Assembly: GCA_950295325.1 (NCBI GenBank)
Contig: OX485807.1
Span: 2,792,501-2,856,500 of the forward strand
Length of the DNA: 64,000 nucleotides
Origin: Polytrichum commune
Lineage: Eukaryota; Streptophyta; Polytrichopsida; Polytrichales; Polytrichaceae
Direction: 5' to 3'
Numbering within the stretch: position 1 is the stretch's first letter; each line of letters opens with the position of its first letter. The notes beneath the pieces were generated by a model. That model worked only from the letters and a program-made list of their open reading frames with translations. It did not search any database and was not told where the DNA came from. Below, in pieces: positions 6,386 through 63,784 of the stretch. The position numbers were made by a program, and so were the translations under genes.

Positions 6386-7434
6386 TTGCATAAATGTGAT
6401 AGCCTTGGGGGGGGGGGGGCAGTGTGTTAAAAAGTTAAGGATATAGGTGCGAACAACCACTATTTTATAGGGGGGTATTACTTTCAATTCTCTTCTTTTT
6501 TCACATGCTATCATTATGTAAATTTCTACTTTGGGTTAATAAAAAAATGGCTTGCATTACTTATAATTCCAAATTACCTATTATTCCATACCCTATATTA
6601 CTCTTAACTCCATTTATAAATTTTAGCCCCCATGTTTTTAAAATACCCTATCATTTGTTCGCACGTATATTGCTATGTGAGCCCAAAATGGTGCCCACAT
6701 GTGGTGATTAACTCTTCGAAACCAATTTTAGTTTGACTTTGAGGTGTTATGATTATTCACAAAACATAAAAAGAGTGAAGTGTGGTGTGAATTTAGGTTT
6801 GGGCATTAGAATGTGTTGTGTAGTTATTTCAAGGTTTGATTTCAATAAGAGGATGCCTTGATTATGTGAGTAGGAGGTAAGGTGAAGCAAGGTGAGCTCC
6901 GCGGGTTAAATGCCCACTTTTGGATCCACCTTGGTAGTTTAGGAAGAAGGAAGCTTGGTGGATGGGGATTAGTCCCTACTTTGGAGGAGAGGATTAAAGG
7001 ATTGTGATTGGGGGTGCTAATCCTCTCACCCTATCCTCACCTCTCTCTCCCTCTCTCCCTCTCTCCCTCTTTGCTACTTAAGGTGTTTCTTCTCTCATTT
7101 GCCTCTCTCTCCATCAAGCGCTCTCAAGGGAGCAAGCTCTTAAAGAGCTTGGGCCACGTGTGTAGGTTATTAGTTTTAGTGGAGTTAATTAGTTAAGCTC
7201 TCCCTCTTAAGTCCTCTCAAGAGAGGTGAGCTCTTCGAGCTTGGGGCCACGTGTGTGGATTAGTTGATGATGTTAGGTAATTAGTTAGCTTATAAGTCGA
7301 AGAAGAAAAGAATTAGCAATTGTCCGATTAAACATCTTGAGGGGGCTACATCTAAGTGTATAGCTAAAAGGCTCGCATGTGGACCTTTGAGCAATTAGGT
7401 GATTAGAGTGAATTTAATTTGGCTTGATTGAGGT

Positions 7435-47485: not shown

Positions 47486-47999
47486 AGATAACATCTAGGT
47501 TTTCTTTTATTTTAATTTTTAAATCTAAGAGTTCATTGCGGATGTCATGTTATGAACCCATCTTTTCCCAGGCAAATTCCATTTCATGTGGGGTTATGCA
47601 GGCAATCCATATTTAGACTTCATTGCTTGCTTCCCAAGCTCCTTCCAAACTAGTGTATACTACACTCTTATCTCTAGAGTCAATTGCTCCGACACTAACC
47701 CAGTTTCAAGTGTACAATGTCCTCAAATTTGGCTCAACTGGACTTACGAAGTGACTTTCTATTGAATCCATTCTGAAAGCACCAATGAAGTTCTATAGGG
47801 TAAAGGTGTGAAATTAGCTCCTGTTTGAGACACATAGAGTGCACATATGAGTGTAACTTCAACCGGTTTATCTGCAACTAACTGCTGGTTCTACCCGGTC
47901 ATTGTCTAGGACTGCAATTGCGTCCTCTTATTGTAACCTGCTCTTTGACATTCCCAAAATACACAATCCAAATCTAGAGATTGCCCTCCCCATCCTGAC

Positions 48000-49409
48000 A
48001 TGATGGACATTGTACCAGTGACACTAAAAATTAAGATTTACGAACGAGTCTACAATGTTATATATCCAAGTCAGAAGAGAGTGCAAGATCTTATGTTGGT
48101 GTTTGCCACCCAATGTAAAGGGGCAATTAAGCCGGGGGCCAAGCGACGATTTTTCGTTTGTATTTATTGTGGTAAGGCAGACTTCTATAATAAGATGAGG
48201 CTCAACCAACACAAGTTTCAAGTAGGGTGCGAAAACGCTAAGTTTTCGGATGGAGTGCCTGCTCTTCTACTGTCCTATCCCGACTTCTTACATGGGCAAG
48301 GGAAGATGGTGGAGGTCATGCGCAAGGGAGCAGCCGATCAAGGTGCAAAGAAAAAAAAGGCGAAGGTGGGGGTTAGTTTTCATGTGGACACCTCTGAGAC
48401 GGAGGATGACAAAGATGCACCAGACCTTGGTGGTTCGCAACCCTTCAAGCAGTCAAATTCCAGTGTCACCGACAGCTACATAGACAACACGCACAAAATT
48501 GTTCCGACACCAACTGATTTGTTCTTCGGTGCAGCGCCCCCGAAGGGAGAGAAGGGGCCTTCACAAGGGAGAGAAAAGAAAGTATGTGCAAAGGGTGAGA
48601 GGACAAAGGACACACTGCAAATTGGACCTGTTAGAAAGAGCACGCAACTCAGTGCTACTGGTCGAGGTTGTTTTAAGGTATTTTCCAAGGTTCAAGATCC
48701 GGTCGTTCAAGTGTATAAAGGTAAGCGGGGCCAAAAAATTCCGGTAGAGGTTCAGAAATGGAAGACAAAAACAAGGGGAGTGTGCGTACAAGAGAAATCC
48801 ATTGTGCGCCAAAATCCTTTAACGGGGTTGTTGGGATCCACATGTGATATTCCAGTGTCACAACGTGTGCGCTCCTGTTTGAAACTGACGGAGGAGGCCA
48901 AGTATGCTGTAAATGACACATTGCATGAAGTATCTAAGGCTATTGATAATGTCCTCTTGGAAGTCCAACCTATTTCTTCTCCAAATGTGTCTCAGTTAAA
49001 TGATCGTGCTTGTGAAGGAGGGGTCCAAGAGATTACTCTACAAGACACTGTATCCAACATGACTTCGTGGGATGACAGGTGGGAACCCACTCCGGGACCT
49101 CTCATTTACTGGGCAGAAGGCAATGAGGCTCCGAAGCCATTTGCTTATCAACCGGGGATGGAAGCGATGTTCAATGTCCGCCGGAATGAGATGTTGCGCC
49201 AAGAAGCAGTTTATGTAGCTCAAGGAAAACAAAGACTTGAAGAAATTTTAAGTTCAAGAATACCGCCCTCGCTTCCCAAGCCTATGTCTATGCCCGGTTT
49301 GTACTACATTCGACAATTCGATGGTGAAGTGACACTACCTTGGTCTTGGAATCATCCAAATGGGAAGATTTTTCGTAGGAAGTGGGAGGAATCTTTTTGC
49401 ACTCAATAA
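48000..49409 (+). CDS. 469-aa single-exon protein with a C2HC zinc finger, family unknown
   Basis: Intact uninterrupted frame from ATG 48000; a second ATG follows at codon 2. Residues 54-77 carry C-x2-C-x13-H-x5-C (Cys54, Cys57, His71, Cys77) in FVCIYCGKADFYNKMRLNQH, a C2H2/BED-like finger with a final Cys. A basic KKKKAK patch (about 117-122), an acidic stretch (TSETEDDKDAPD) and a lysine-rich middle follow. The carboxyl third is Trp/Pro-rich (WDDRWEPTPGPLIYWAEGNE, LPWSWNHPNGKIFRRKW). Probably a nuclear, nucleic-acid-binding protein; function not known. It could be a transposon-derived or captured ORF, since a fragment of repeat S lies 90 bp upstream. Confidence 0.6.
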   Translation: MMDIVPVTLKIKIYERVYNVIYPSQKRVQDLMLVFATQCKGAIKPGAKRRFFVCIYCGKADFYNKMRLNQHKFQVGCENAKFSDGVPALLLSYPDFLHGQGKMVEVMRKGAADQGAKKKKAKVGVSFHVDTSETEDDKDAPDLGGSQPFKQSNSSVTDSYIDNTHKIVPTPTDLFFGAAPPKGEKGPSQGREKKVCAKGERTKDTLQIGPVRKSTQLSATGRGCFKVFSKVQDPVVQVYKGKRGQKIPVEVQKWKTKTRGVCVQEKSIVRQNPLTGLLGSTCDIPVSQRVRSCLKLTEEAKYAVNDTLHEVSKAIDNVLLEVQPISSPNVSQLNDRACEGGVQEITLQDTVSNMTSWDDRWEPTPGPLIYWAEGNEAPKPFAYQPGMEAMFNVRRNEMLRQEAVYVAQGKQRLEEILSSRIPPSLPKPMSMPGLYYIRQFDGEVTLPWSWNHPNGKIFRRKWEESFCTQ

Positions 49410-50796: not shown

Positions 50797-50810
50797 TTCC
50801 ATATTTTACC
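50797..50810. repeat. Left target-site duplication of the LINE
   Basis: TTCCATATTTTACC, identical to 63771-63784 at the other end. Confidence 0.95.
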
Positions 50811-52599
50811 GGTTGCGTTAAGTTACTTGCAAAGGGGGAAAGGAAGGAAAAGATCATGGACATTCAATATTAACCTACCTACGCTCAGAAGATATGAGGA
50901 GAATAGCGGCGGAGCGAAGCTCTGCCGAGGAGCGAGCTCGCAGCAAGCCCAGCTGCCTCCCCCACGATCCACTGCCGAGCAAGAGGAAGACAAAGAAGGA
51001 TGCGAAACGAAGAACGCCAACAACAGATCTGAACCAACAGACATCCAAACGACCAGCACAGCGAAGAGAGGCACAGAAGAAAGACAAGCCGACGAAGAAG
51101 ATCCAGGACAACACAAGCCATATACAAGATGCGCCAACATGCACAAACAAGAGAGCAGGAACCAAAGCAGAGCAAAGGCTCAAATCAAAGCCAGATCCAG
51201 ATCTAAGAGGAAGCAGAGGAAAAAGGAAAACACAAACTCTCAGCAGTAGGGTTCTGCTCTTTCTTATACAATGGGTGCTCATAAGCACCAACACTCTGTG
51301 TGTCTACACACACCACAATGGTCCCCCATCAATGCCTAAGCCCACAAAATCTCCACACAGCTGCCCCGCCCCAATACCAAGATCCATAATCTACACAACA
51401 AGCTACTCCTCTCTAACCTCCACTGGCCGGAACCCCACCATGTGAATGCCTACTCGCCCACTCAACAGAAGCGATCCCACATCAATAATCACCACCATTA
51501 GCTCCCCACTAAGCTACCAACCATCAAGGGCACCCCACACATCCTCTCCACCAAACTGTCTGTGTGTATACACAAAACCCATAACCTACCCACTCCCTCC
51601 CCAACTAACTCCATCAAACTACTCCCACAACCACCACTCAACATGGAGCGCCCTCCCCTCACTTCGCTGCACTCCTGCCTCCACAAATGCGCCCCGCCGC
51701 ACCCCAAGATCGCAACTGCGATGCTCTCCGAACCAGAGCACTCCTCCAATGCCACCCACCCCCAAGCACAAACACAATAAGGTCAACAAAGGCACTCGCA
51801 CCCACCAGCAAGAAACCACACAAAAGCAAGACCAAAAATATGACACTACACATCTTGTTAGCTTACCTCCAGCAGAGAACACTCCACACCAAGCTCCTCC
51901 CCCCGTGGCGATGCAAAACCCCTCGCTGCCAAAACTGCACCACCCCCGAAACACGTTGCCATTCCAAATAAAACAATGCGACCACACACAGCTCATACCA
52001 AGGCAGAATGCACCCACGAATCCACAAAAAACCACCATGTTACACCAATACATCCCATCCACCTACCCATCTAACCAAAAACCACAAAGAGCCGATCCCC
52101 ACAACAAGCCAAAACCCATAGCTACACCCCTGCACACACCCACAGCCAAAACGGCACTCCCTCCCACGATCCCAACCTACAAACAACCCCACTCCTCAAA
52201 TACCTATACAGCCAAAACCCTGCCACCACACACAACTCCCACCACTCCAGACAGCCCCAACCCAAACTCAGGCTCAAAACAAAGCAACAATCTAACAAAA
52301 ACAAAGCTACCACAGATCTCGCCGAAATTCAACGCCAGGCACCACCGAAGGCCAGGCAGATACACACCCACACCCTACCACAGCAAGAAAAGAAACAAAC
52401 ACCCCACCAAAAAATGCCCCTCGCCTCCTCCAAAAAGAATCGCAACACACCTGCACCCACAACCCGCCGATCTATCACCCAACCAGCCCAACCCACAGAC
52501 TCACCCTCAAATACCCCACCCTCCCACACACTTCCTCACTCATCTCCACCACTCAACATCATCCCCCACTCAGCTTCCCCACACAGCACCATCACCATC
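50811..52599 (+). other. LINE 5' leader and proline/threonine-coding tract
   Basis: 50880-51250 is GC-rich with overlapping frames of unclear meaning. Hairpins are visible: AGCAG..CTGCT (51242-51258) and GGTGCT-CATA-AGCACC (51274-51289). From 51446 a frame runs to 53173, mostly Pro/Thr/His/Asn; this follows from the C/A-rich composition and may not be translated. The promoter, if internal, should lie here. Confidence 0.5.
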
Positions 52600-54745
52600 T
52601 CCCAGCATGGCCTCCAAAGACACACTCATGAAACCTGATGCTAGATTAGAGATAGATTTGAGAAACAGGAGCCGGCGAACTCATAGCTCAGGCACCGAGG
52701 ATCGCCACCCACTTCCAACCGCAGAAACCACACCAGGACTACACAACGAGAAACTAGATAGTGTTGGTCACCACAGCAACGGCCTCGCACTCGCAACCAG
52801 CACCAAGACACCCACAGGAACGCTACTGGCACCGAAACGAGCAACGTCGGAGACACTCAGGAGGGGAGGGGCCGAGACAGGAGCAAACGACACACTGGGC
52901 ATCGGACAGGGAGGGGTCGTGACCGACGGCACAAGGGGGCCCGGACAGGGAGGGGTCGAGACCGGCAGAGCGAAGGGGCCCAGTACCAGAACAGGAGCCG
53001 AGAGTGAAAACGGACGACCACAACACTCAAGGACCAGAAGCAGGCGGGTGCTGCTCAGTGACTACGCACAAGACGCACTCCGACTCCACCAAATCCCACA
53101 ACATGAGGACCAAGGAGGCAATACCTATCATAGACATTGTATCACAAATGTGGCTTGGATTCCCTATCCATGAAGCCGTTGCCACCCAAAACGGCAAGGA
53201 AGTCATCCAGGAGTACCGCACCAACGACGATTTTGCACGAGTCGGCACTCCACCAAGTAAAGTCATCGAATTCATGACACTCCGAAGAGCCTTCCCAAGA
53301 GTGCCACAAATGCTCTACCCCAACGAGAGGCCGGATGCAGTGCCCGGCAACCACCTCCACTTACTCAACTTCCAAGACTAGAGAAGGTGGACCCCACCAC
53401 GGGCTTATCCGAAGGCTTCCAAGTCACCATCCGCTTTGACCATGGATTCAAAGGCATAGCTAGACAAGATGCTAGAGGAGCTTGTCTAGAGCGACTCCGC
53501 CAAATGGACATCCCCCTTGGAAAGGCCTACTCAAACCCGATTGACATAGGCCTGAATGCAATTACCAAGAATTGGGTGGGGTTCATTAAGATACACCTAC
53601 TACGACCACAACAAGACGGCCTAGCACTCCTTTAAGGTAGCCGAGCTTTTGTCATGGAGATGGAGGACGGCGAGAAGGTTATTGGGAAAGTGGAGAAAGG
53701 GTACGAGCTTGCCACCAAGGCCCGTAACCTCCGATTACACCTCAAAGGCGAGTCACTATGACACGAAAATGCATTCGACATCTTTGAGGCCATAGCAAGA
53801 GAAAGTTACTACACCGGTAAACAACATGAGTTTATGGGACTCACCAAGCCGGAGCTTGATAAGAACTTCGCATTTCTTACTCTCACTACAGAAGAGGCGC
53901 GGGACCTAGTACTAAAAGACGGACTCACTTTCAACCACGAAAAGTTACAAGTTAGCGTCACCCGGGATCGTGGCAATGGTAACCCATCGGAGCAATGGTA
54001 ACCCATCATAGTCGTCAACAACCTCCCTCAACGCGAACCTCAAACCGCCATCACGCGAGCCATAAAACAAGTCTTCGGGGCGGACAACATAGTGGGAGTA
54101 AGCTTTGGAGCCAACAACCAACCTCATACGGACAAGCATGCAGGATGGTACCACATTCAGTGTCTTAATGCCGCAGTCTACACCGAATGGCTCCATAAGT
54201 CCGCAATCTTGCTAGGAAGAAGGGTCGACTTCATACCACACCGGGGTAGCATCGACGGCTCCGACCCCAACAACACGGCCATACGTCTAGCCCAAGCACC
54301 CGTACGTGAGGTCATCGCCGACAAAATTCAAGCAATGAGCAATGCGGCCAACCCCAACCCGCTCATCACCGAAAAACACCTCAACAAAACCATGAAGGAC
54401 TTTGAAGAAAAACTTGACGAAAAGTTTGGCTCTCTAACCACAAACATCAACAACCATACAGACCGGAGGCTCAAGACCACTACGGCAACACTAGTTCACC
54501 ATACGACCCACCTCCAAGCGCTCCTCGGCACGATCGCCCACGAATTCCAACAATCTAACCTCCGTATGCAAGGGATAGTCAACGGACTATCCGCCGCCGC
54601 CCCGGAGATACTACAGAGAACCAACCCACCGCCACCACCCCAAGGTTACAACACGACCGCTCCACCGCTCCCACTCCAAGCTCCCCCGGGCTTCCACGGG
54701 AACCAACAAATGTCCCAAAAAGGCCCAAACACATTTAATGGATAG
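52600..54745 (+). pseudogene. LINE ORF1, RRM-like and coiled-coil, disabled
   Basis: Nucleic-acid-binding ORF1. The frame 53004-53381 (EAIPIIDIVSQMWLGFPIHE) shifts to the frame 53387-54745, which contains TAA at 53633, TGA at 53758 and TAA at 53999; the last follows a 16-17 bp tandem duplication. Around 54008-54230 IIVVNNLPQREP and GWYHIQCLNAA resemble RNP2 and RNP1 of an RRM. 54390-54500 is charged and helical (MKDFEEKLDEKFGSL), likely a coiled coil; the end is Pro/Gly-rich. Upstream, 52858-52985 holds imperfect ~40-bp repeats (GGGAGGGGTCGTGACCG). The true start is not resolved. The stop codon overlaps the ORF2 start as ATGGATAG at 54738. Confidence 0.7.
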
Positions 54746-56071
54746 TCACCCTATAGGCTACCTTCAATGGTTCATATTTGCTATATGTTTTGTTTTCCAC
54801 TATTTCTATAATAAAGGGTTCAAACCCATGAGTTGGCTACCTAACACGCCCCCCAAAGGCACTCTTACTATCGTCCAACAAATTGGTCCCCATAGGGCCA
54901 TAGTCCAAGAACACAATCCCACAAAACACTAGCAAACAAACATCTAAAACTAAACTACCACAAACGAAAATTATTAATACTTAGCCTCATACTCATAATG
55001 GGGCTAAGCCACCCAACTACTAACCACCAATCAAACCCCCCAAGACATACAACCCTTGGTCCACAAAACCAAACTCACAATATAACCACAAGAAGAGACA
55101 AGCTCCTCCCCATAATAACACATCTAAAACACATACCCATTATGGCCACCTATACACCTCCCTCACATACTCCACTCCCAAAAACATACAAGTTATTACG
55201 ACAAATACCCACCCAAACTACACTCCCATCCATCCAAAATTCATCTCCCACAATCACCCCCATCAACACACTAACACTATATCCACCACACCAATACCTT
55301 ATAAATAACACACTAACACCCAAACATCAATATACACATATTAGAGGAACACCTTATCCCCACCCCACCCACATATACATCATCAAAAACCTAACATATG
55401 TAGTGGACATTAACCCCACTACATCCCACAAATGGCCCCTACCCCCTACACATGGTATCTCCTACCTATTATATAACAAGAAAAACGAGACTCCTTCTCT
55501 CCCTTACATAACATACATTCACACACACTCCATCCACACTAACACCATGCATACATACCCGCCATACACCCCATACACTACATACCCGCCACTTGCCCAC
55601 CACACCGACCTTACACAAGAAATCACCACACACCCAATTAAACCCATTCTCCTAGATAAAACCTACAACACCAACCCACAAATGCCACTCACACAAGGAA
55701 AACCACTAATCCCCCATCGTTCGGGCCCAACTAAACACACAATAAATCCACAAACACTACCCACACCCTATAAGCACACCCCACACACACTCAAACCATC
55801 TAGCCACACACATAATATATATGTCACATCCACATACAAAAGGAACCTAATACCACACCACAAAATCACCACAACCCCTATAGACCCCCCAATACCCACA
55901 CCACCTCACCCCCCGCAACAACCACAATTCCAATACCCAAAACATATAGGCATACACCACACCACCATATACATCACATTCTACACAACCAAACACCCAC
56001 ACTACAAACACCCAACCATACACAAACTAACTGCATACATTAGAGACTTACACGCACTAATATTTCTTAGC

Positions 56072-56098
56072 GGTGATATACAACCTAACCCCGGACCA
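56072..56098 (+). other. 2A-like ribosome-skipping motif, first copy
   Basis: GDIQPNPGP preceded by ALIFLS, matching the D-(V/I)-x-x-N-P-G-P core of 2A peptides reported at the amino ends of several LINE ORF2 proteins. If active, translation would release the amino segment before the nuclease/RT part. Confidence 0.7.
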
Positions 56099-56715
56099 AT
56101 CTCACACATTACCAAAAACCTCCCCCAAGAGTACACACAAAGACAAAGACATTTTTTCATACCCAACTTTATGTATTGGTTCTTCTATTATTGCTATAAT
56201 AAAGAGCATACGCACAACATTTGGCAAACTTGGACACACCCCCAACACATCCACACTACTTACCAACAAACACCTCACCAAACTAATAACACAACCCAAA
56301 AAGATACAATATACCACAAAAAACCTTCAAAGTCCCCACACCAAACAAGAAAAACCATAACCTTAAGTATTATAATTACAATAATAATACCAAGCTACAC
56401 CACCGCTATCCATCAAATAAACCCCGCCCATACGAACAACTCACACCAACATCAACACACCTATAATTCACCCATATATAAAAGAACCCTACTAACACAT
56501 CACAAAATCACCTCCACCCCCATAGACTCCATAACACCTACATCACCTTACCCCCCCCCCAACAACTACAAGCTCACTATCCAAAATTCATTAACACACA
56601 TCACACTATTATATACATCACATTTTACATAACCAAACACCCCCACCATAAACACCCATCCTTATACAAACTAACCAAATATATTATAGACCTCCAAGCA
56701 CTCATACTCCTTAGT

Positions 56716-56742
56716 GGCGACATACATCCTAACTCTGGACCA
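56716..56742 (+). other. 2A-like motif, second copy, altered
   Basis: GDIHPNSGP preceded by ALILLS. The first proline of the NPGP core is serine, which should abolish skipping. This copy is continuous with the downstream endonuclease frame. Confidence 0.7.
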
Positions 56743-57339
56743 CCCATACATATAACTAAAGGTCTCCCCCGGGACTATACACAAAGACAAAAACATTACT
56801 TTATACCTAATACCACCTCACTTAAACCCTCATATACCCACCTAGAAAACTTATTCTCAACACATCTAACACAAGACTCGCCCAACCAAGAACTAACCAA
56901 CATACACCGTCACAAACCAATACTTTCACAACACCCACTACACTCCCAAATTTATGCCCTCATAATAACATATGGACCTACACCACAAATATGCGACCAA
57001 CAAATGGTTGAAGACATCGACCCCCGATGCCTCACCATCCTCAAAAGACTACAAAGATCCCCGGAATACACTTCCTTACACACACAACACTTACACACCA
57101 TCAACCACCACACACCACCTACTACCATAGCACAAACATACACACACATAAATGAAAAAATAGCCAAAGGGGAAACCATAACTATGCCTATCCTACAAAA
57201 AGAAATACCCCATATACCCCCACAAATCCTACTAGAGCTAAGCAAATGTACACAAACCATACATGGTTACCACCCCACACATGACATAATACACCCCAAC
57301 CTTAGCCCGAACACCAGCATAGACACGGACAATCACCAA

Positions 57340-58150
57340 ACTTCCACATTAAAAATAATTACCTAGAATACAGGGTGTATCAGCTCAAGTTTACCTGGAA
57401 TCCAAGAACTCGCACGAACAACACATAAAGACCCACATATCATACTCATCCAAGAAACTAAACTCCAAAAACTAAAATCCACAACATATATAGACAAAAA
57501 ATCCCCAAACTACAAAATTATATATAATAACTCAAACACCACAACACCAAACCAAAACAGATATTCTAGGGACAACCTGGCTAGAGGGGGTACCCTAACT
57601 ATGATACCTAAAACCATTCACACAAACGAAAATATCACCAAAATCCCCACACCTAGCACAATCTCACCATACCTACAAGTCATCACCATCAAAAATAAAC
57701 CAATCACCCCCATACTCCTCATAAATATGTACATGCCTACACACCCCCAAGACCTACACCTAATACAAGAAATCCAAAACTAAATCCAAAACTAAATCCA
57801 AAACTAAATCCAAACATTAGTACAAAATCACTCAATACACCACATCATACTAGGAGGTGACTTCAACCGAGACATCCTCCTTAAAAGACGGTCATCCAAC
57901 GGAATAACATCCCCTCCCAATCCACATGACCATAAATGGGCTCACTTCACACAAAGACTAGGACTCAAAACGATTAATAACCACGAAACATACACAAGGC
58001 AAGGGGGATACAATTACACCGCGACTAGCCACATTGATGGATTTTACTCTAATCTCCCAAACCACGCCTCCCTACAAAGCTACACAATCACTAACCTTAA
58101 CCAAAATTTTGACCATCACCCGGTCCAATTACAATTAGCCCCAAACACCA
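57340..58150 (+). other. ORF2 APE-type endonuclease domain
   Basis: Order of motifs: ILIQETKL (57444 on, catalytic Glu), GGDFN (57853-57867), SHIDGFYSN (58027-58053) and DHHPV (58111-58125, catalytic Asp-His). This is the complete apurinic-type LINE endonuclease set that nicks target DNA. The first motif is interrupted by TAG near 57364. Confidence 0.85.
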
Positions 58151-58979
58151 TAATTATAAAGACCAAACCAACACCTAACACCAATCCTAGGATCATCTAT
58201 CCTATATCCCCGATAAATATCCAAAACCTCCTAACAACCTTCCTAGATAAACAAAATCTTCAAATATTAAATCTCATAGACACATTACAACAAGACCAAC
58301 TCACTCAACCACAATGGGAAGAAGCCAAAATTAACTTCCAAAAAATCTTAAACTCTCTCAGCAATTGTGTTGAGCAAACATGCATGACACAACCCACACC
58401 CCTCTCCCCAACCGAGCCAAGATCCAAGGCGGATTCCTCCCAAGAAAGCAATAGAAAATTTGGAAATTACACCTCAAAATATATCACAGCATCCGCAAAG
58501 CAATACATGCAGTCTGCCACTACCACCACACACAATTACATAATCACCCCGACATAAAGACACTCCTCTCACTCCACAATGTCAACATCCCCCCCCCTCC
58601 CCACAAACAATGGATTGAGGACCTAGCCCATATAGGCCAAACGGCCAAAATAGATGCCTACAAAATTACCTCCAAACAAACCTCGATCAACTGCAAAATC
58701 GCCATCAAGAAATATAGAGCCCTACTCAACACCAAACCCAAAACTATCCACAAAAAGATCTTCCAACCATCAACCGAAAGCTCGTTGGATTGCATAAAAG
58801 ACTCTCACAATAACATACTTACCAAACCCATAGAAATAGCCAATGAAATATACCGCGTCCAACAAATATCATTTCAAAGACAAGCGCCCATTTGCGATGA
58901 CACCATAGACCACCCACACATATGCATGTGTGCCATACGAAAATATCCATGGTACTCATAAGACGGGATCATAATAGAC

Positions 58980-60115
58980 AAACGCGGACCTCAAAACCCA
59001 CAAATAAGCCTACAATTCACTAGAGAAATATATGACAATTGTGTAAAAAGATTAACCAAAGGTAAAACCCCCGGCCCGGACAACATCCCCAACGACATCA
59101 TCAAGATATTACCCCCACAATGCCAAACCTTTATATTCTTATTCTTCCTACATTTCTACAAACAACGGGAAATCCCAACTGCCTAGAAACACAGTAAAAC
59201 TATTTTACTCCATAAAAAAGAAGACCCTACCCAACTCAACAACTATAGACCAATAGCGTTAGTTAATACAATATATAAACTATATACTAGCACATTAACA
59301 ACCCTCCTTACAAACTACGGGAAAGAAACCGCATACTACACTTCAGTCAAGAAGGTTTCCGCCCACAACGTAATACCTCAAGGCAAATACAAACGCTAAT
59401 AGCCGCCCTCGAAGATGCACGACTCACGAATAAAGACATATATCTAACATACATAGACTTTAAAAACGCTTTTGGTTCTATAGACCACGCAAGACTCCTA
59501 GCTATCATGGCCGACCTAGGCTACCCCTTAGATGCCATCGAAATAGTAGGCAACATTTATAACCATTCTACCACCGCCTTCACGGATAACTTCTTCGGAA
59601 CTACACCTCCCATCAAAATTAACCGACGTACCATACAAGGTGACACCCTTAGCCCATATTTATTCATAATCTTTCTAGAACCACTCTTAAGATGGCTAGA
59701 GAAGGGCAATATGGGCTACCACTTTAGCACGTCCCCATCCACATACACCACATCGGCATATGCCGACGACCTAGCCATTATCACCGACAAAATTCAACAT
59801 ATTCAACCTCAAATAACTAAGCTCCAAAAATTCGCCGAATGGGCGCATATGAATCTCAACTTATCAAAATGCACCATCACCGGATGCCCTAACAAGTCCA
59901 AACTCAAACCTAATACCTTTAAAGCGTTCATCCAATCCCAAAACATTATGTATAAATCCAAAAACTTCCCAATCCTTATACAAAATGAGCCATCCACATA
60001 CCTAGGCATCCAACTAGTGCCATCCCTAAAATGGAATCTCCAAAAAGAACTCACCTTAAATAAAGCCAAACAACAAGGCAAACTACTCGCCGCCTCCCCG
60101 GCAAGCTTAAAATAA
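58980..60115 (+). other. ORF2 reverse transcriptase domain
   Basis: Motifs in order: GKTPGPDNIP (59061), NNYRPIALVN (59240), EGFRPQRNT, YIDFKNAFGSIDH (59452; first catalytic Asp), QGDTLSPYLF (59637), YADD (59759-59770, catalytic pair). A frame change falls between 59310 and 59350. Confidence 0.92.
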
Positions 60116-60304
60116 AAAATCAAAATCCTTAATACCGTCATAAAACCTCGGATTGCCTACGCATACTATGCGGTCCCCTTTTCAAAGCCCGATATTAAAA
60201 AACTTGATAAAATAATCAGTAAAATAACAAAAGAAACTTGCAACATACCAAAAAGTACAGCCAATATCCTCACACACCTACCACACGAAAACTTCGGCAT
60301 AAAT

Positions 60305-62180
60305 ATGACCTCACTACTCCCAGACTACATTCATTGTATAGGTCAGCAACTACTACAAGCCCTCAACGATCCAGGGCAACTAGGTACCATCTATCAAGGC
60401 CTAACCAAATACATATCCACTAAATATGGAGGTTCCCTACACCTACCTAAACTAAAACAACAAGCGTGCTCTAGGTCCCCTATAGCACGGACACTATTCC
60501 TACTCAAAAGAGAATATGAAATACATGTAACCACCAAAAACAAAACCTTCCCAGTCAAAAAAACCCCACTAGAAATAGCATGGAGAACCAACCCCATATA
60601 CAACACCCTCTTGGACCACTCTAAAATACAATCCCAAAAATACCTAGACAAACTTTATACATATGGCATAACCACTCTACCACAAATCTTAAACAAAACT
60701 AGCACATCCATCCTTACCCCCGAAGAATTCCGCATCACATACAAAAACGCACCCAAAACCATTAAGGCGGCACTACAACAAGCACAAACACTATTCTCTC
60801 AACCACAACAACCCGTACCCCAAAGAACACCCCAAACAACACAACACCCGACACAAACCACCGACCCCAACCTAAACCCAATATTTGGGAACGCCATACA
60901 TAAAATCATAAAAGAAAAAACTACCACAAGAAAGGACAAATGGGGAGCACAAGCCATCAAAAAAACATACTTATGCCAATGGCAGACCACGAACAACACC
61001 ACACATCAATGGCGCACAGAAGAAGACTTACTCCACCCGGACAACATATTTTTAAACCACAACCTATTAACCATCACACAATACCACACCGCAACCACAA
61101 CACAAAACACCACGAACACATATGTCAGTTACCTTACCAATACCCAAACAAAAGACACTAAGTTTATACATCCACCACTAACAATCACCAACCTCACACT
61201 AAACATCCATGAATGTAACCCCGACAAAGATATCATAACCAACAAACCGTCCATAACAACACACACATTAGGAGCAAATATATATGACCAAAAAGGAAAC
61301 TACATAGCTACCCTTACCCTCGAAAGGTTACATTGGCTATGGAACCAATTCTCTCATAACACCCTTCAACACCTCAAAAACTTCCTACAACCACCACCAC
61401 AAGATTTTGAAACAGAAATCCTATGGCTCCTACAAAGATACATAACTATACTCCCCAGGAAAAAGCCAAAAACTATCCAACCAAACAACCTACACCAAAC
61501 ACTACCCCCCGAAATCACCAAAACACTCATAGAATCCTTCCAAATTACACACTCATACTATTCATCCCCCCTCACTTGCCCTACCCAACTCACCCAATAT
61601 AACTCCCCACACACTCGAGACATACTATTTGGATCAATAGGCAAAGCAAACTCGGCTAAATGGACAGGGCATGGACTAGCGTTCCCCACGGACCACAATA
61701 CAACCCTCGAAGCCCTCCACTGGGCTAGAATGGCCGCTAAAGAGGATGCACAAACAATCACTATCCTAATAATAAACCACAAGGATTGGACACCACAACA
61801 AATACCACTAACAAACCCGGACATACACATCCTAGCCACAATCCCACCACATACTATAACATACAACCCCACGCCAGAATGGCCAAAATACTACCAATAC
61901 ACCGAACCATCCCTTACATCAATCATATGCGTACACAACCAAGGAACCATACTAAATAACACCCAAATACCAACCGCATTACAAAGAATACTCAAAAACA
62001 CTACACATACACACATAGACATCCACCCCATTAAACCCACACCCACACATTACAACGTTAAATTCTCTAACGCATGGAAAAATGCCCCTAAAACCACCCC
62101 CCTCCAAACCATAAACACCCACATAATACCCCTACCAAGCACATTCACAAACACATACCCCCTTAAATTCCACCCACAAC
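60305..62180 (+). other. ORF2 thumb and unassigned ~600-aa region
   Basis: Open without a stop for over 600 codons, though the rest of ORF2 is riddled with them. The first part (PKLKQQACSRSPIARTLFLL) is typical LINE post-RT sequence. Around 61556-61960 a distinct globular block reads SSPLTCPTQLTQY, DILFGSIGKA, EALHWARMAA, ITILIINHKDW. Its spacing loosely recalls PCIF1-type methyltransferases, but the catalytic NPPF is not present. I cannot assign it. Confidence 0.6.
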
Positions 62181-62185
62181 AGTGC

Positions 62186-62625
62186 ACATATACGGATGGA
62201 TCATTCATCCCCCCGACCAAAAACTCCGAAGGCCAAATAGAAGAAAACACTGCAGGATCGGGAGTATATAGCCCTAACAACAACACAAAAATCTCATAAA
62301 GATTACCAGGCTACCAAAACATACTTAGAGCCGAACTAAATGCAATTCTCATTGCCGTTAAAAATATACAACTCACTAAAATAGACACACACATATTTAC
62401 GGATAGCCTTAACAACATATACCTAATTAACAACCACATCCACCGCCCAACATCACAACACCACCACCCAGACAAACTACTCATAGCAGCAATAGTACGA
62501 CATATATACTGGACCCCACACAAAATACACATACATAAAGTACGGGCTCATACAGGCATCACCGGAAATGAAATAGCAGATGAACTAGCAAACGAAGGAA
62601 CTACCAAAGAAAAACCGGATACCAC
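62186..62625 (+). other. ORF2 RNase H domain
   Basis: All catalytic motifs are seen: YTDGSF (first Asp at 62195), RAELNA (Glu), FTDSLN (Asp) and RAHTGITGNEIADELAN (His and last Asp). The TAA at 62297 lies between the first and second motifs. RNase H would remove template RNA during reverse transcription. Confidence 0.9.
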
Positions 62626-62949
62626 CCCACGTATACACACTGCCCACTCGACCCCATACTGGCTAGCAGGCTGCCCAACAGCCACACACGACGGAGCCAT
62701 CCGTAACTTACGTACATTCATAACCAAAGAACACGAAACAAATGAAGCAAACCTAGCCAAACATAAATTCCCATACGTAGACAAATGGCTATCCAATACC
62801 CAAATAAACCAAAAACTCTCCAACCATTTTTGGCAAGACGAGAAAATCCCGGATACCCAAATCATCCAAATACTCAAATTCAGATACGCCCAATATATGG
62901 GTAACCACAGGAAAAACATATTTTGGCCTATCACACACCCAAACCCCAA

Positions 62950-63480
62950 TTGCATGCTATGCCATAAAAATGAACGTGACACATGGCCTCACCTACTATC
63001 CACATGTGAGCACCCATTCCTTAAAGGACTCAGAATTGCACGACACAACAAAGCAGTACATCTCATCGCCCAAACATTACAAGCCAACAAGAATACCAGA
63101 TTCTTTACACTAACAAACGCAGGTCACTTTAATAACCAACCACAAGAACAAACAGTACCGGAATGGCTGCTCCAATGCACTTGCCACCCAAACCCATGCC
63201 AATGCCTCGCCAAACTAAGACCAGACATCCTATGCATACTCGGAGCACCAAAACAAATACAACCACCTATATCACCCTCTCCCAAACATACGATCCAATT
63301 CATTGAATTCACATACTACCATGATAGATTCCCAGAACAAGCCATCACACACAAACATGCCAAATATGACCCACTAAATAACATCATCCAAAACAACGGT
63401 TGGAAAACCAACCCCCTCATAACCATCACGGCAGGAGTAAGAGGAGCCATACACGAACACTCCATTGAAAATCTCACAAA
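62950..63480 (+). other. ORF2 CCHC finger and restriction-like endonuclease domain
   Basis: CMLCHKNERDTWPHLLSTC (62955 on) is C-x2-C-x9-H-x4-C, the finger preceding the nuclease in R2-type elements. Then a CxCx4CxC cluster, RPD (63218-63226), IEFT (Glu at 63305) and KHAKY (63354 on). RPD..E-x-T..K-x-x-K-Y is the PD-(D/E)XK arrangement of R2/R4/Dualen restriction-like nucleases. This part of the frame is uninterrupted. Confidence 0.8.
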
Positions 63481-63616
63481 AATAAACATCCCAAAATCAA
63501 ACATCAAAAAATTGATGAAAGACATACACCAAAACGCCATCAAATACCTTACCTACTTAGTATTAAATAAAAGAAAACTAGACAACAGACAAAAACCCGT
63601 ACCCCCTCCTAATTAA

Positions 63617-63770
63617 AGATAGCTTGTTTGTATTAAAACCCTAGAGCCCACCTCCCCACAGGAGGCATAAAACCATACACTGCATCACGGAATACCGTGA
63701 TCAGTGCATGGCTAACGGGCTCGCATTCACGCTGGTATCATATACTAGCGTTACTTTTTCTTTTCTTTTC
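63617..63770 (+). other. LINE 3' UTR with three hairpins and TTTTC tail
   Basis: Hairpins: CCTCC-CCACA-GGAGG (63651-63665); a two-part stem CACTG..ATCACGG-AATA-CCGTGAT-CAGTG with one bulge (63678-63706); CGCTGGTAT-CAT-ATACTAGCG (63730-63750, one G-T pair). The tail TTTTTC-TTTTC-TTTTC runs to 63770. Such structures are plausible reverse-transcriptase recognition sites. Confidence 0.85.
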
Positions 63771-63784
63771 TTCCATATTTTACC
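63771..63784. repeat. Right target-site duplication of the LINE
   Basis: TTCCATATTTTACC, identical to 50797-50810. Confidence 0.95.

Follow-up and report, generated by a model that had tools for sequence, protein, structure and literature searches.

A large, recently amplified LINE, probably of the dual-endonuclease type, in Polytrichum commune

In the window analyzed here, a stretch of 64,000 nucleotides of Polytrichum commune DNA, a complete non-LTR retrotransposon of 12,960 bp occupies positions 50811..63770 of the + strand, on which all features described below also lie. These limits were assigned because an exact 14-bp repeat, TTCCATATTTTACC, flanks both ends as a target-site duplication (TSD; upstream copy, 50797..50810; downstream copy, 63771..63784), as a sequence-only reading of this DNA had proposed. 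Three other full-length copies were found, with lengths of 12,702–14,583 bp and TSDs of 12–14 bp; 12.7–14.6 kb is long for LINEs. TSD-like repeats of 10–14 bp occurred at the same two junctions in all 10 of the other copies examined at both ends (three long and seven short), and because of this recurrence, the terminal repeat of the window element is not a chance match. When the flanks of the seven short copies were shuffled, a repeat of at least 10 bp arose in 7 of 2,100 trials. For the long copy L008, the length of the 12-bp repeat is weak evidence in itself, since the same search gave 11-bp matches elsewhere, but the repeat still counts because it begins exactly where the tail ends. Insertion is dispersed: when ten loci were compared, they had no common flank beyond the element sequence. 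The family has hundreds of copies: one type of 3′-UTR pattern had 629 exact matches (control, 0), and pairs of copies were 99.4–99.7% identical; the family was amplified recently. The host signals (70 exon-wise GRAS matches, 28 exon-wise NAC matches, and plastid rbcL) agree with the streptophyte origin read from the letters, and most likely indicate a land plant.

The element has two ORFs. ORF2 contains, in order, an N-terminal region, a 2A-like peptide, an exonuclease III/AP-endonuclease-like (APE) domain, a reverse transcriptase (RT), a chromodomain-like segment, a CAPAM-like pseudo-methyltransferase domain, an RNase H domain, a CCHC finger, and a restriction-like endonuclease (RLE). In the window, ORF2 is broken into several reading frames, and this copy is therefore presumably dead; the earlier description of a “full-length LINE” holds for the DNA (50811–63770) and fails for the coding sequence. 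The search for intact copies was successful, with ORF2 uninterrupted from APE to RLE in 7 of the 13 sister copies fetched; from stop to stop, it measures 2,372–2,924 aa in L001–L003. The broken state of the window copy and its strongly skewed, A/C-rich composition (A 0.377, C 0.322, G 0.125) might suggest chance motif matches in a decayed A/C-rich repeat, an idea with virtually no probability left: it is refuted by the sister copies and their long frames, and Pfam E-values down to 1e-32 and invariant motif residues also contradict it. Within subfamilies (pairs with dS under 1.6), each of the six ORF2 domains tested gave a dN/dS far below 1: 0.07–0.16 for APE, 0.05–0.07 for RT, 0.04–0.31 for the chromodomain-like segment, 0.08–0.19 for the CAPAM-like domain, 0.04–0.15 for RNase H, and 0.08–0.12 for RLE, with an exception of 0.28 in the very young pair window/L004 (dS 0.065). 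Between subfamilies, where dS is near saturation, the values were 0.39–0.77 for the chromodomain-like segment and up to 0.36 for APE, 0.33 for the CAPAM-like domain, and 0.40 for RNase H.

All enzymatic motifs previously claimed (APE, RT, RNase H, CCHC, and RPD..E..K) were located in the window at the positions given. The interrupted APE domain (57352..58150, outer limits approximate) contains the motifs QETK (57451–57462), GGDFN (57853–57867), SHIDG (58027–58041), and DHHPV (58111–58125). In Pfam, its broken frames score 0.0085 and 0.18, and the sister copies L001 and L002 match Exo_endo_phos_2 (9.7e-8) and Exo_endo_phos (1.3e-5), respectively; L003 gave no APE model under E = 1. The catalytic residues and motif columns are invariant in the alignment of seven copies (A4). 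The RT, also interrupted (59061..60286; PGPD ... YADD, with YADD at 59759–59770), matches PF00078 (RVT_1) at 1.8e-26, and at 1.4e-32 in L001. The RNase H domain (62156..62629; TDGS at 62192–62203, RAEL, and DSLN), which is interrupted at about 62297, matches PF00075 at 4.9e-12 in the window and at 1.3e-14 in L001. The region with the CCHC finger and RLE (62753..63610) was characterized with hhalign and hmmsearch, and contains RHNK, RPDI (63218–63229), FIEFTY (63299–63316), KHAKY (63353–63367), and GVRG. The Cys and His residues of the finger (CMLC-x9-H-x4-C, 62951..63007) are invariant in alignment A1. Against R2 (9nl2/9nl3), hhalign aligned this region with a probability of 96.4, an E-value of 1.4e-9, and a score of 67, whereas 60 shuffled controls scored at most 21 (best probability, 1.48); the restriction-like nuclease suspected in the carboxyl domain thus found a profile match. 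With hmmsearch, the stretches matching R2 were collinear, each insignificant alone, and a plain search against solved proteins was insignificant (E 0.33). Homology to the R2 restriction-like endonucleases is supported by profile alignment and collinearity. Single-sequence structure models were uninformative (pLDDT 33 and 34).

On these alignments, both nucleases are real, and one element carries two unrelated endonucleases, as had been claimed. A single nuclease can be enough for a LINE, since the RLE of R2 cleaves both strands and L1 relies on its APE, and it is quite possible, if somewhat short of probable, that only one works here and the other is retained for DNA or RNA binding (e.g., APE nicks both strands and CCHC+RLE positions the complex, or the reverse). 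The dispersed insertion, as in APE-type LINEs, and the replacement of D by N in the RPD motif of L004 favor this reading, but in both nucleases the catalytic residues vary little or not at all between subfamilies, and the two have similarly low dN/dS.

R2 inserts site-specifically in 28S rDNA and has neither APE nor RNase H; plant L1 LINEs have APE and RT and insert at dispersed sites, where they generate TSDs. In a search with the RT profile of the sister copies, R2 was the best solved relative (9.6e-40; human L1, 3.4e-25), as it was for the CCHC+RLE region. The element shares these features with plant L1s, from which RNase H has also been reported (a passage in PMC4640811), but it differs from them in having an RLE and a tail that is not poly(A). 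It differs from R2 in carrying APE and RNase H and in its dispersed insertion with 10–14 bp TSDs. In the RT tree, which is unrooted, has only six reference rows (R2 and three host L1s), and carries a long-branch warning, the element's ten sequences group in one clade (100/100) on the R2 side (R2 support 90/90), and a branch supported at 100/100 separates them from the host L1s. Since plant L1-type LINEs (L070–L072) occur in the same host, and since modules recombine in this family, as seen from copies that share ORF2 and have differing ORF1, an ordinary plant L1-type LINE could have gained an R2-type C-terminal domain late, making the likeness to Dualen convergent. The few references, the long branches, and the 88 bits that R2Bm scores with the RT profile, fewer than two of the host L1s reach, leave some room for this origin. 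We nevertheless regard it as quite improbable, given the placement of the element RTs apart from the host L1s, the profile scores of two R2 elements (143 and 128 bits, against 60–99 for the host L1s), and the presence of CCHC and RLE in both main subfamilies, whose RTs are ∼62% identical. The RT thus groups apart from the host L1s tested and the carboxyl domain matches an R2 nuclease; neither result refutes the sequence-only reading.

Several features had escaped that reading. Upstream of APE, a tandem duplication (55827..56810; units 76–80% identical, spacing 642–644 bp) contains one 2A-like “ribosome-skip” peptide per unit: GDIQPNPGP (56072..56098), a motif type found in 11 of the 13 fetched sister copies, and the degenerate GDIHPNSGP (56716..56742). 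2A peptides were reportedly found in APE-type LINEs by Odon in 2013. A passage in PMC12846837 cites Odon 2013 for such elements, and another in PMC4981915 gives the 2A/StopGo core as D[V/I]ExNPGP and mentions 2A in non-LTR elements. As in those LINEs, the peptide lies inside an ORF; here, in contrast, the element is a dual-endonuclease one in a land plant. Six copies (L002, L005, L006, L008, L009, and L012) have the canonical core, whereas L001, L003, L004, L010, L011, and the window have H, K, or Q in place of its Glu. Ribosome skipping at this peptide would separate the enzymatic portion of ORF2 from the N-terminal leader.

Two further domains unmentioned earlier lie between RT and RNase H. 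For the chromodomain-like segment (60935..61051), the matches of profile A5 to the PDB were marginal (best E = 0.0077), and the top seven of the 12 matches were all CDY-family chromodomains; Pfam Chromo was likewise marginal (0.13 in the window, 0.12–0.13 in the window and L001) and was not listed for L002 and L003. The segment may serve as a binding module for chromatin. The second, a PCIF1/CAPAM-like methyltransferase domain with a degenerate catalytic motif (61175..61894), matches PF12237 (E = 1.2e-7), which corresponds to the CAPAM-like methyltransferase and not the WW domain (a passage in PMC7641849). This model was found in 9 of the 9 copies scanned, with E-values down to 6e-14 (L002, 2.9e-12). 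The domain aligned with zebrafish PCIF1 in hhalign (90.5%), with which it shares FGSxG and SP[LV]xC, and was insignificant against solved proteins in a plain hmmsearch (E 0.3); the proposed homology draws on profile alignment, Pfam, and collinearity. Unlike PCIF1/CAPAM, it sits inside a retrotransposon protein and has lost the catalytic Asn: where PCIF1 has NPPF, the window reads FPTD, and in 33 of 33 aligned copies the Asn is His or Phe, with variation at the other motif positions. The domain thus looks like a disabled RNA-cap methyltransferase, and it may act as a binding module that probably recognizes the m7G cap at the 5′ end of the element's RNA. Conservation of SSP[LV]TC and FGSxG and its low dN/dS would also suit an adenine methyltransferase that still works despite its altered motif and marks, for example, the RNA cap or DNA of the element; with the Asn absent throughout, such activity seems unlikely.

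A structured 3′ UTR, absent from the earlier reading, spans 63644..63753 and comprises a closed stem with two inner hairpins, followed by a terminal hairpin. The fold covaries: among 34 pairs compared in 16 copies, 15 show changes at both positions, and 96% of cells are paired. It is followed by a pyrimidine microsatellite tail, CTTTTTCTTTTCTTTTC (63754..63770); in the copies compared, the tail is (CTTTT)n or (CTAT)n.

The Dualen/RandI elements of Chlamydomonas, reportedly described by Kojima and Fujiwara in 2005, are said to carry a cysteine protease, which we did not treat as clade-defining. Pfam matches up to E = 1 included no peptidase, either in the ORF2 of three copies or in the ORF1 frames of three copies and one window piece. 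Strict membership in Dualen/RandI is not established, because of this result and because the references of the RT tree were R2 and host L1 sequences. Nevertheless, typed by architecture and compared with Dualen by description only (passages in PMC3636483 and PMC4640811), the family is probably a large, recently amplified land-plant LINE of the dual-endonuclease (Dualen/RandI-like) type. Like Dualen/RandI, it combines APE upstream of RT, RNase H, and a C-terminal RLE with CCHC in one protein, and its (CTTTT)n tail resembles the (CTTT)n or (ATT)n ends of the Chlamydomonas SINEs that pair with RandI (a passage in PMC3747384). It differs in its land-plant host, CAPAM-like pseudo-methyltransferase, chromodomain-like segment, and 2A-like peptide. 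The earlier statement that Dualen was described from green algae agrees with the cited part of a 2015 survey (PMC4438587), which gives green algae only, but not with LINE/Dualen repeats in cryptophytes (a passage in PMC12747079). The dual-endonuclease type is present here in an abundant land-plant family, with an architecture that resembles and goes beyond the type described mainly from algae.

Dual-endonuclease elements have been proposed as a link between RLE-bearing and APE-bearing LINEs (a passage in PMC4640811). In the mechanism inferred for the present element, one endonuclease, most likely APE, would nick the bottom strand; the RT would recognize the 3′-UTR fold, as in stringent LINEs, and target-primed reverse transcription would then be primed in the tail repeats. 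The other, most likely RLE, would nick the top strand 10–14 bp away and so set the TSD, and RNase H would clear the RNA. A more far-reaching scheme is doubtful but possible: this LINE would have kept both its ancestral RLE and an acquired APE as a working pair with one nick each, and would have made a cap-adenosine methyltransferase into a dead cap-reading module that selects capped full-length RNA, so that the element can still copy itself at 13–14.6 kb. If the dead CAPAM-like domain binds caps, retrotransposons would have a previously undescribed means of recognizing their own full-length RNA. Because the family has long open frames and near-identical copies, a plant laboratory could directly test why a LINE would keep two nucleases.

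Two fragments of ORF1 were also recognized in the window. The conserved region at 53261..53632 aligns with ORF1 of L003 at 56% identity over 91 aa and with those of L008 and L002 at 27–30%; it had no Pfam match under E = 1 and appears RRM-like by eye only. The C-terminal part at 54002..54745 is 46% identical to ORF1 of L003 over 256 aa and, again only by eye, appears coiled-coil-like.

The LINE occupies positions 50811-63770 of the window (12,960 bp, + strand). The 14-bp repeat TTCCATATTTTACC abuts it exactly at both ends, so that its borders are set by the target-site duplication (TSD), as the sequence-only reading had claimed. The motifs listed in that reading, those of an exonuclease III/AP-endonuclease-like domain (APE) before the reverse transcriptase (RT) and of a CCHC finger with a restriction-like endonuclease (RLE) at the C-terminus, were all located in the window in the order it gave. 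In this copy, ORF2 is split into several frames, all on the + strand: the APE lies in two pieces (57367-57783 and 57808-58557), the RT frame at 59291-60115 is followed by a frame at 60116-62299, and the last frame spans 62300-63616. Pfam matched RVT_1 (1.8e-26), RNase H (4.9e-12) and PF12237 (1.2e-7), and the broken APE frames reached only 0.18 and 0.0085. A 12-bp unit, AAATCCAAAACT, is repeated in tandem at 57770-57817, the site of the APE frame break in the window copy.

The assembly (407.8 Mb, 99.6% of it in seven contigs of 42-78 Mb) contained at least 141 matches to the RT piece of the window (141 scored among 1722 rough candidates) and at least 96 to the C-terminal piece (96 scored among 7646). 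There were 629 occurrences (304 + 325) of an exact pattern taken from the 3' UTR, and none of its reversed control. In a search of the assembly for intact copies, the APE, RT, middle region, RNase H and RLE stood in one uninterrupted frame in seven of the 13 sister copies fetched (L001, L002, L003, L005, L006, L008 and L009), a ratio that is no estimate of the intact fraction because the 13 were picked mostly for long open frames. ORF2 was split in L004, L007, L010, L011 and L012, and L013 had no frame of ≥ 250 aa. Measured from stop to stop, the ORF2 frames of L001, L002 and L003 were 2,372, 2,919 and 2,924 aa long. Four pairs of copies were nearly identical (L007/L001, 99.5%; L009/L008, 99.4%; L010/L003, 99.7%; L011/L003, 99.6%), and these sequences point to a recent amplification of the family.

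L009 aligned with L003 from L003 element position 6749 onwards, with identities of 87.5% through ORF2 and 80% in the 3' UTR; nothing upstream of that position aligned. The ORF1 proteins of L003 (with L017) and L008 (with L019) were only 30.5% identical, and that of L003 was 46-56% identical to the ORF1 pieces of the window. Taken together, these comparisons point to a swap of the 5' module between subfamilies.

Of the 13 fetched copies, 11 have a GDIxxNPGP-type motif upstream of the APE; it was not seen in L007, in which the fetched stretch starts near the APE, or in L013. It lies in the frame of the APE in L001-L003, L006 and L008-L012. The motif has its canonical Glu in L002, L005, L006, L008, L009 and L012, and H, K or Q replaces it in the others. 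The 2A consensus is given as (D/G/C/N)(V/I)ExNPGP, plus rare variants, in an excerpt of PMC12846837. Such a 2A-like peptide would cause a ribosome skip. The window and L004 each have two of these peptides, and those of the window sit in a tandem duplication at 55827-56810, the units of which are 76-80% identical.

We then compared the two nucleases among copies. In the APE alignment (seven copies), N6, E35, D162, N164, D221, D246 and H247, the catalytic residues of this enzyme family, were invariant. Pfam identified the APE of L001 as Exo_endo_phos_2 (9.7e-8) and that of L002 as Exo_endo_phos (1.3e-5), and gave no match under E = 1 for that of L003. The claim that the carboxyl domain is a restriction-like nuclease was borne out by hhalign, which aligned it to R2 over 210 columns (probability 96.4%, E = 1.4e-9, score 67.4; the R2 sequence letters were taken from the PDB search output), and the best of 60 column shuffles reached a probability of 1.48% and a score of 20.95. 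In a plain hmmsearch, the C-terminal profile found R2Bm chains alone (E = 0.33), across the CCHC/RHNK part. A profile from the RT to the C-terminus aligned with the R2 chains 9nl2, 9nl3 and 9dou at three collinear stretches: one in the RT, a second over CCHC/RHNK, and a third over K..KY..GARG, close to the C-terminus. R2Bm aligned at the first two, and the non-RT stretches were individually insignificant. Among 10 copies, the three Cys and the His of the finger, the P of RPD, the E of FIEFTY and K..KY were invariant, and the D of RPD was nearly so (N in L004). A structure model of the RLE region from the window sequence alone (pLDDT 32.8) was set aside.

Within subfamilies, dN/dS was 0.07-0.16 for the APE and 0.08-0.12 for the RLE, except for 0.28 in the RLE of the very young pair of the window and L004 (dS 0.065); only pairs with dS < 1.6 were listed, and the ratios are rough because most listed dS values exceed 1. 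The mechanism we propose combines directly observed facts (the anatomy, borders, low dN/dS ratios, 3'-UTR fold, copy number and near-identical copies) with known LINE biochemistry. In this mechanism, each nuclease would be assigned to one strand; that the APE makes the first nick and the RLE the second has, in our estimate, close to an even chance of being correct. The rival explanation, in which only one of the two nucleases is active, has to be weighed against the same residues and ratios, and we consider it almost as likely.

Between the RT and RNase H lies a PCIF1-type (CAPAM-like) domain. PF12237, which an excerpt of PMC7641849 classes as a CAPAM-like methyltransferase rather than a WW domain, matched nine of the nine copies scanned (best 6e-14). 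A zebrafish PCIF1 fragment aligned with the CAPAM-like profile in hhalign (90.5%, score 42.9; 100 shuffles, ≤ 18.3), and in a plain hmmsearch of the PDB, PCIF1 was the single match (E = 0.3). The aligned part stops at FGSxG, directly before the catalytic motif; in a by-eye continuation, zebrafish PCIF1 reads ANPPF there vs A[HF]P in 33 of 33 aligned copies (13 including the window, and 20 picked from the 150 places that were scored, out of 697 candidates, in the PF12237 search). Its dN/dS, 0.08-0.19 inside subfamilies and 0.28-0.33 when subfamilies are compared, speaks for maintenance of the domain. It may bind caps, and its being a cap-reading pseudoenzyme is a tentative reading to which we give about one chance in three. 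A structure model of the region from the window sequence alone (pLDDT 34.2) was set aside.

The chromodomain-like segment preceding this domain is less certain, because Pfam Chromo stayed under its cut-off and the between-subfamily dN/dS was 0.39-0.77 (0.04-0.31 within subfamilies). In a PDB search with its profile, CDY-family chromodomains were the best 7 of 12 matches (best E = 0.0077), and the segment could bind chromatin. A search of the assembly with the 99-aa zebrafish PCIF1 fragment (150 of 183 candidates scored) did not find the host's own PCIF1 gene, possibly because exons split it, and gave two weak places (E = 6e-4 and 1e-3); both are also on the PF12237 list, and one (L073) carries the element-type motif.

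For the RT profile, the E-values were 9.6e-40 with R2 (9nl2), 3.4e-25 with human L1 and 7.9e-24 with R2Bm. In an RT tree of 10 element rows, three R2 and three host L1 sequences, the element rows formed one clade, and the branch between them and host L1 had a support of 100/100; that of R2 was 90/90, and the program warned of long branches. This argues against a plain L1. Membership in Dualen, as proposed from the sequence, is beyond what a tree with R2 and host L1 as references can show. The same genome also contains plant L1-type LINEs with long frames of 1272-1418 aa (L070, L071 and L072). No relative was confirmed in viral_contigs, where two scans yielded 48 and 12 pattern matches, and Rfam at the gathering threshold found nothing in the window. 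With NCBIfam, the only additions for L002 and L001 were resemblances to RT, RNase H and exonuclease III, plus two names that are presumably spurious.

By architecture alone, the closest known type is Dualen/RandI, for which an excerpt of PMC4640811 reports both APE and RLE, and also RNase H, as in the element. In excerpts of other studies, Dualen/RandI is listed for green algae only (PMC4438587), LINE/Dualen is reported in cryptophytes (PMC12747079), and Dualen is placed in core-Reinhardtinia algae (PMC8226300). Excerpts of PMC12695648 name neither PCIF1 nor CAPAM. In the CC-licensed PMC literature, we found no report of a CAPAM-like domain in a retrotransposon or, among the titles listed, of Dualen in land plants; the element is therefore a known, Dualen/RandI-like kind of LINE in a form for which we found no earlier report on these two points.

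The host gene content was also examined. Contig C8 carries rbcL adjoining an accD-like ORF. The rbcL scored 1080 bits with 9chz, 1059 with 4hhh, 1030 with 3rub (presumably the tobacco chain) and 1026 with 1gk8 (presumably that of Chlamydomonas), and because the last two hardly differ, rbcL alone is weak for host placement. There were 70 exon-wise matches for GRAS and 28 for NAC, the latter resembling 14 two-exon genes. Land plants characteristically have large sets of GRAS and NAC genes, and the small size of the NAC set here suggests a bryophyte. Speculatively, the seven large contigs would match a moss with n = 7.

Two tail types were found at the 3' end: the subfamily of the window has (CTTTT)n, and L002, L003 and L008 have (CTAT)n. 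The (CTTTT)n-type 3' UTRs of 16 copies (nine of 20 newly fetched and seven earlier; near-duplicates, L052, which is without the first hairpin, and (CTAT)n-type copies were excluded) form a closed stem that encloses two hairpins and is followed by a terminal hairpin adjoining the tail. Both sides changed in 15 of 34 pairs, and pairing was kept in 96.0% of cells; shuffles gave 88.8%, with 0 of 500 reaching the observed value, and sliding gave 30-40%. Further pair types were less striking (28 vs 24.2; 11 of 500 as high). By eye, the (CTAT)n type shares only the terminal hairpin motif. We infer that this may be the recognised 3' fold that a stringent LINE would require.

Three more complete copies, L003 (14,583 bp), L002 (13,473 bp) and L008 (12,702 bp), for which the adjoining genome stretches were read, had TSDs of 14, 14 and 12 bp; for L008, the same search gave 11-bp chance matches, so its support is position plus length. 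TSDs of 10-14 bp also flank seven very short copies, each with 94-117 bp of element sequence, and shuffling their flanks gave repeats of ≥ 10 bp in 7 of 2100 trials. The flanks of 10 compared loci had nothing in common beyond element sequence, indicating dispersed insertion. The first TSD base was T, and the preceding base a purine, each in 10 of 11 insertions (window included). As a target preference, this is only a weak hint, because the tail consists of T and C, so that an adjoining T may be tail or target, and because the preceding base cannot equal the last tail base without lengthening the repeat.

The short copies (L040-L046, the seven starting at query base ≥ 21 among 40 scored 3'-UTR matches of 657 candidates) retain only the terminal 94-117 bp of the element and were also considered as SINEs; this reading was dropped, as their upstream parts are unrelated to each other and each has its own TSD, and they are interpreted as truncated insertions. 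Six of the seven have start points no more than 4 nt apart, all in the loop of the first 3'-UTR hairpin, which would fit a halt of reverse transcription or a cut in the RNA at this place. The element has a strong strand bias in base composition (A 0.377, C 0.322, G 0.125, T 0.175), which is reflected in the GC-skew drop of the window; L002, L003 and the stretch of L001 have a comparable bias, and L008 a weaker one. Upstream of the element, a 486-aa open frame at 47949-49409 contains, close to its beginning, a finger-like C..C...H..C stretch.
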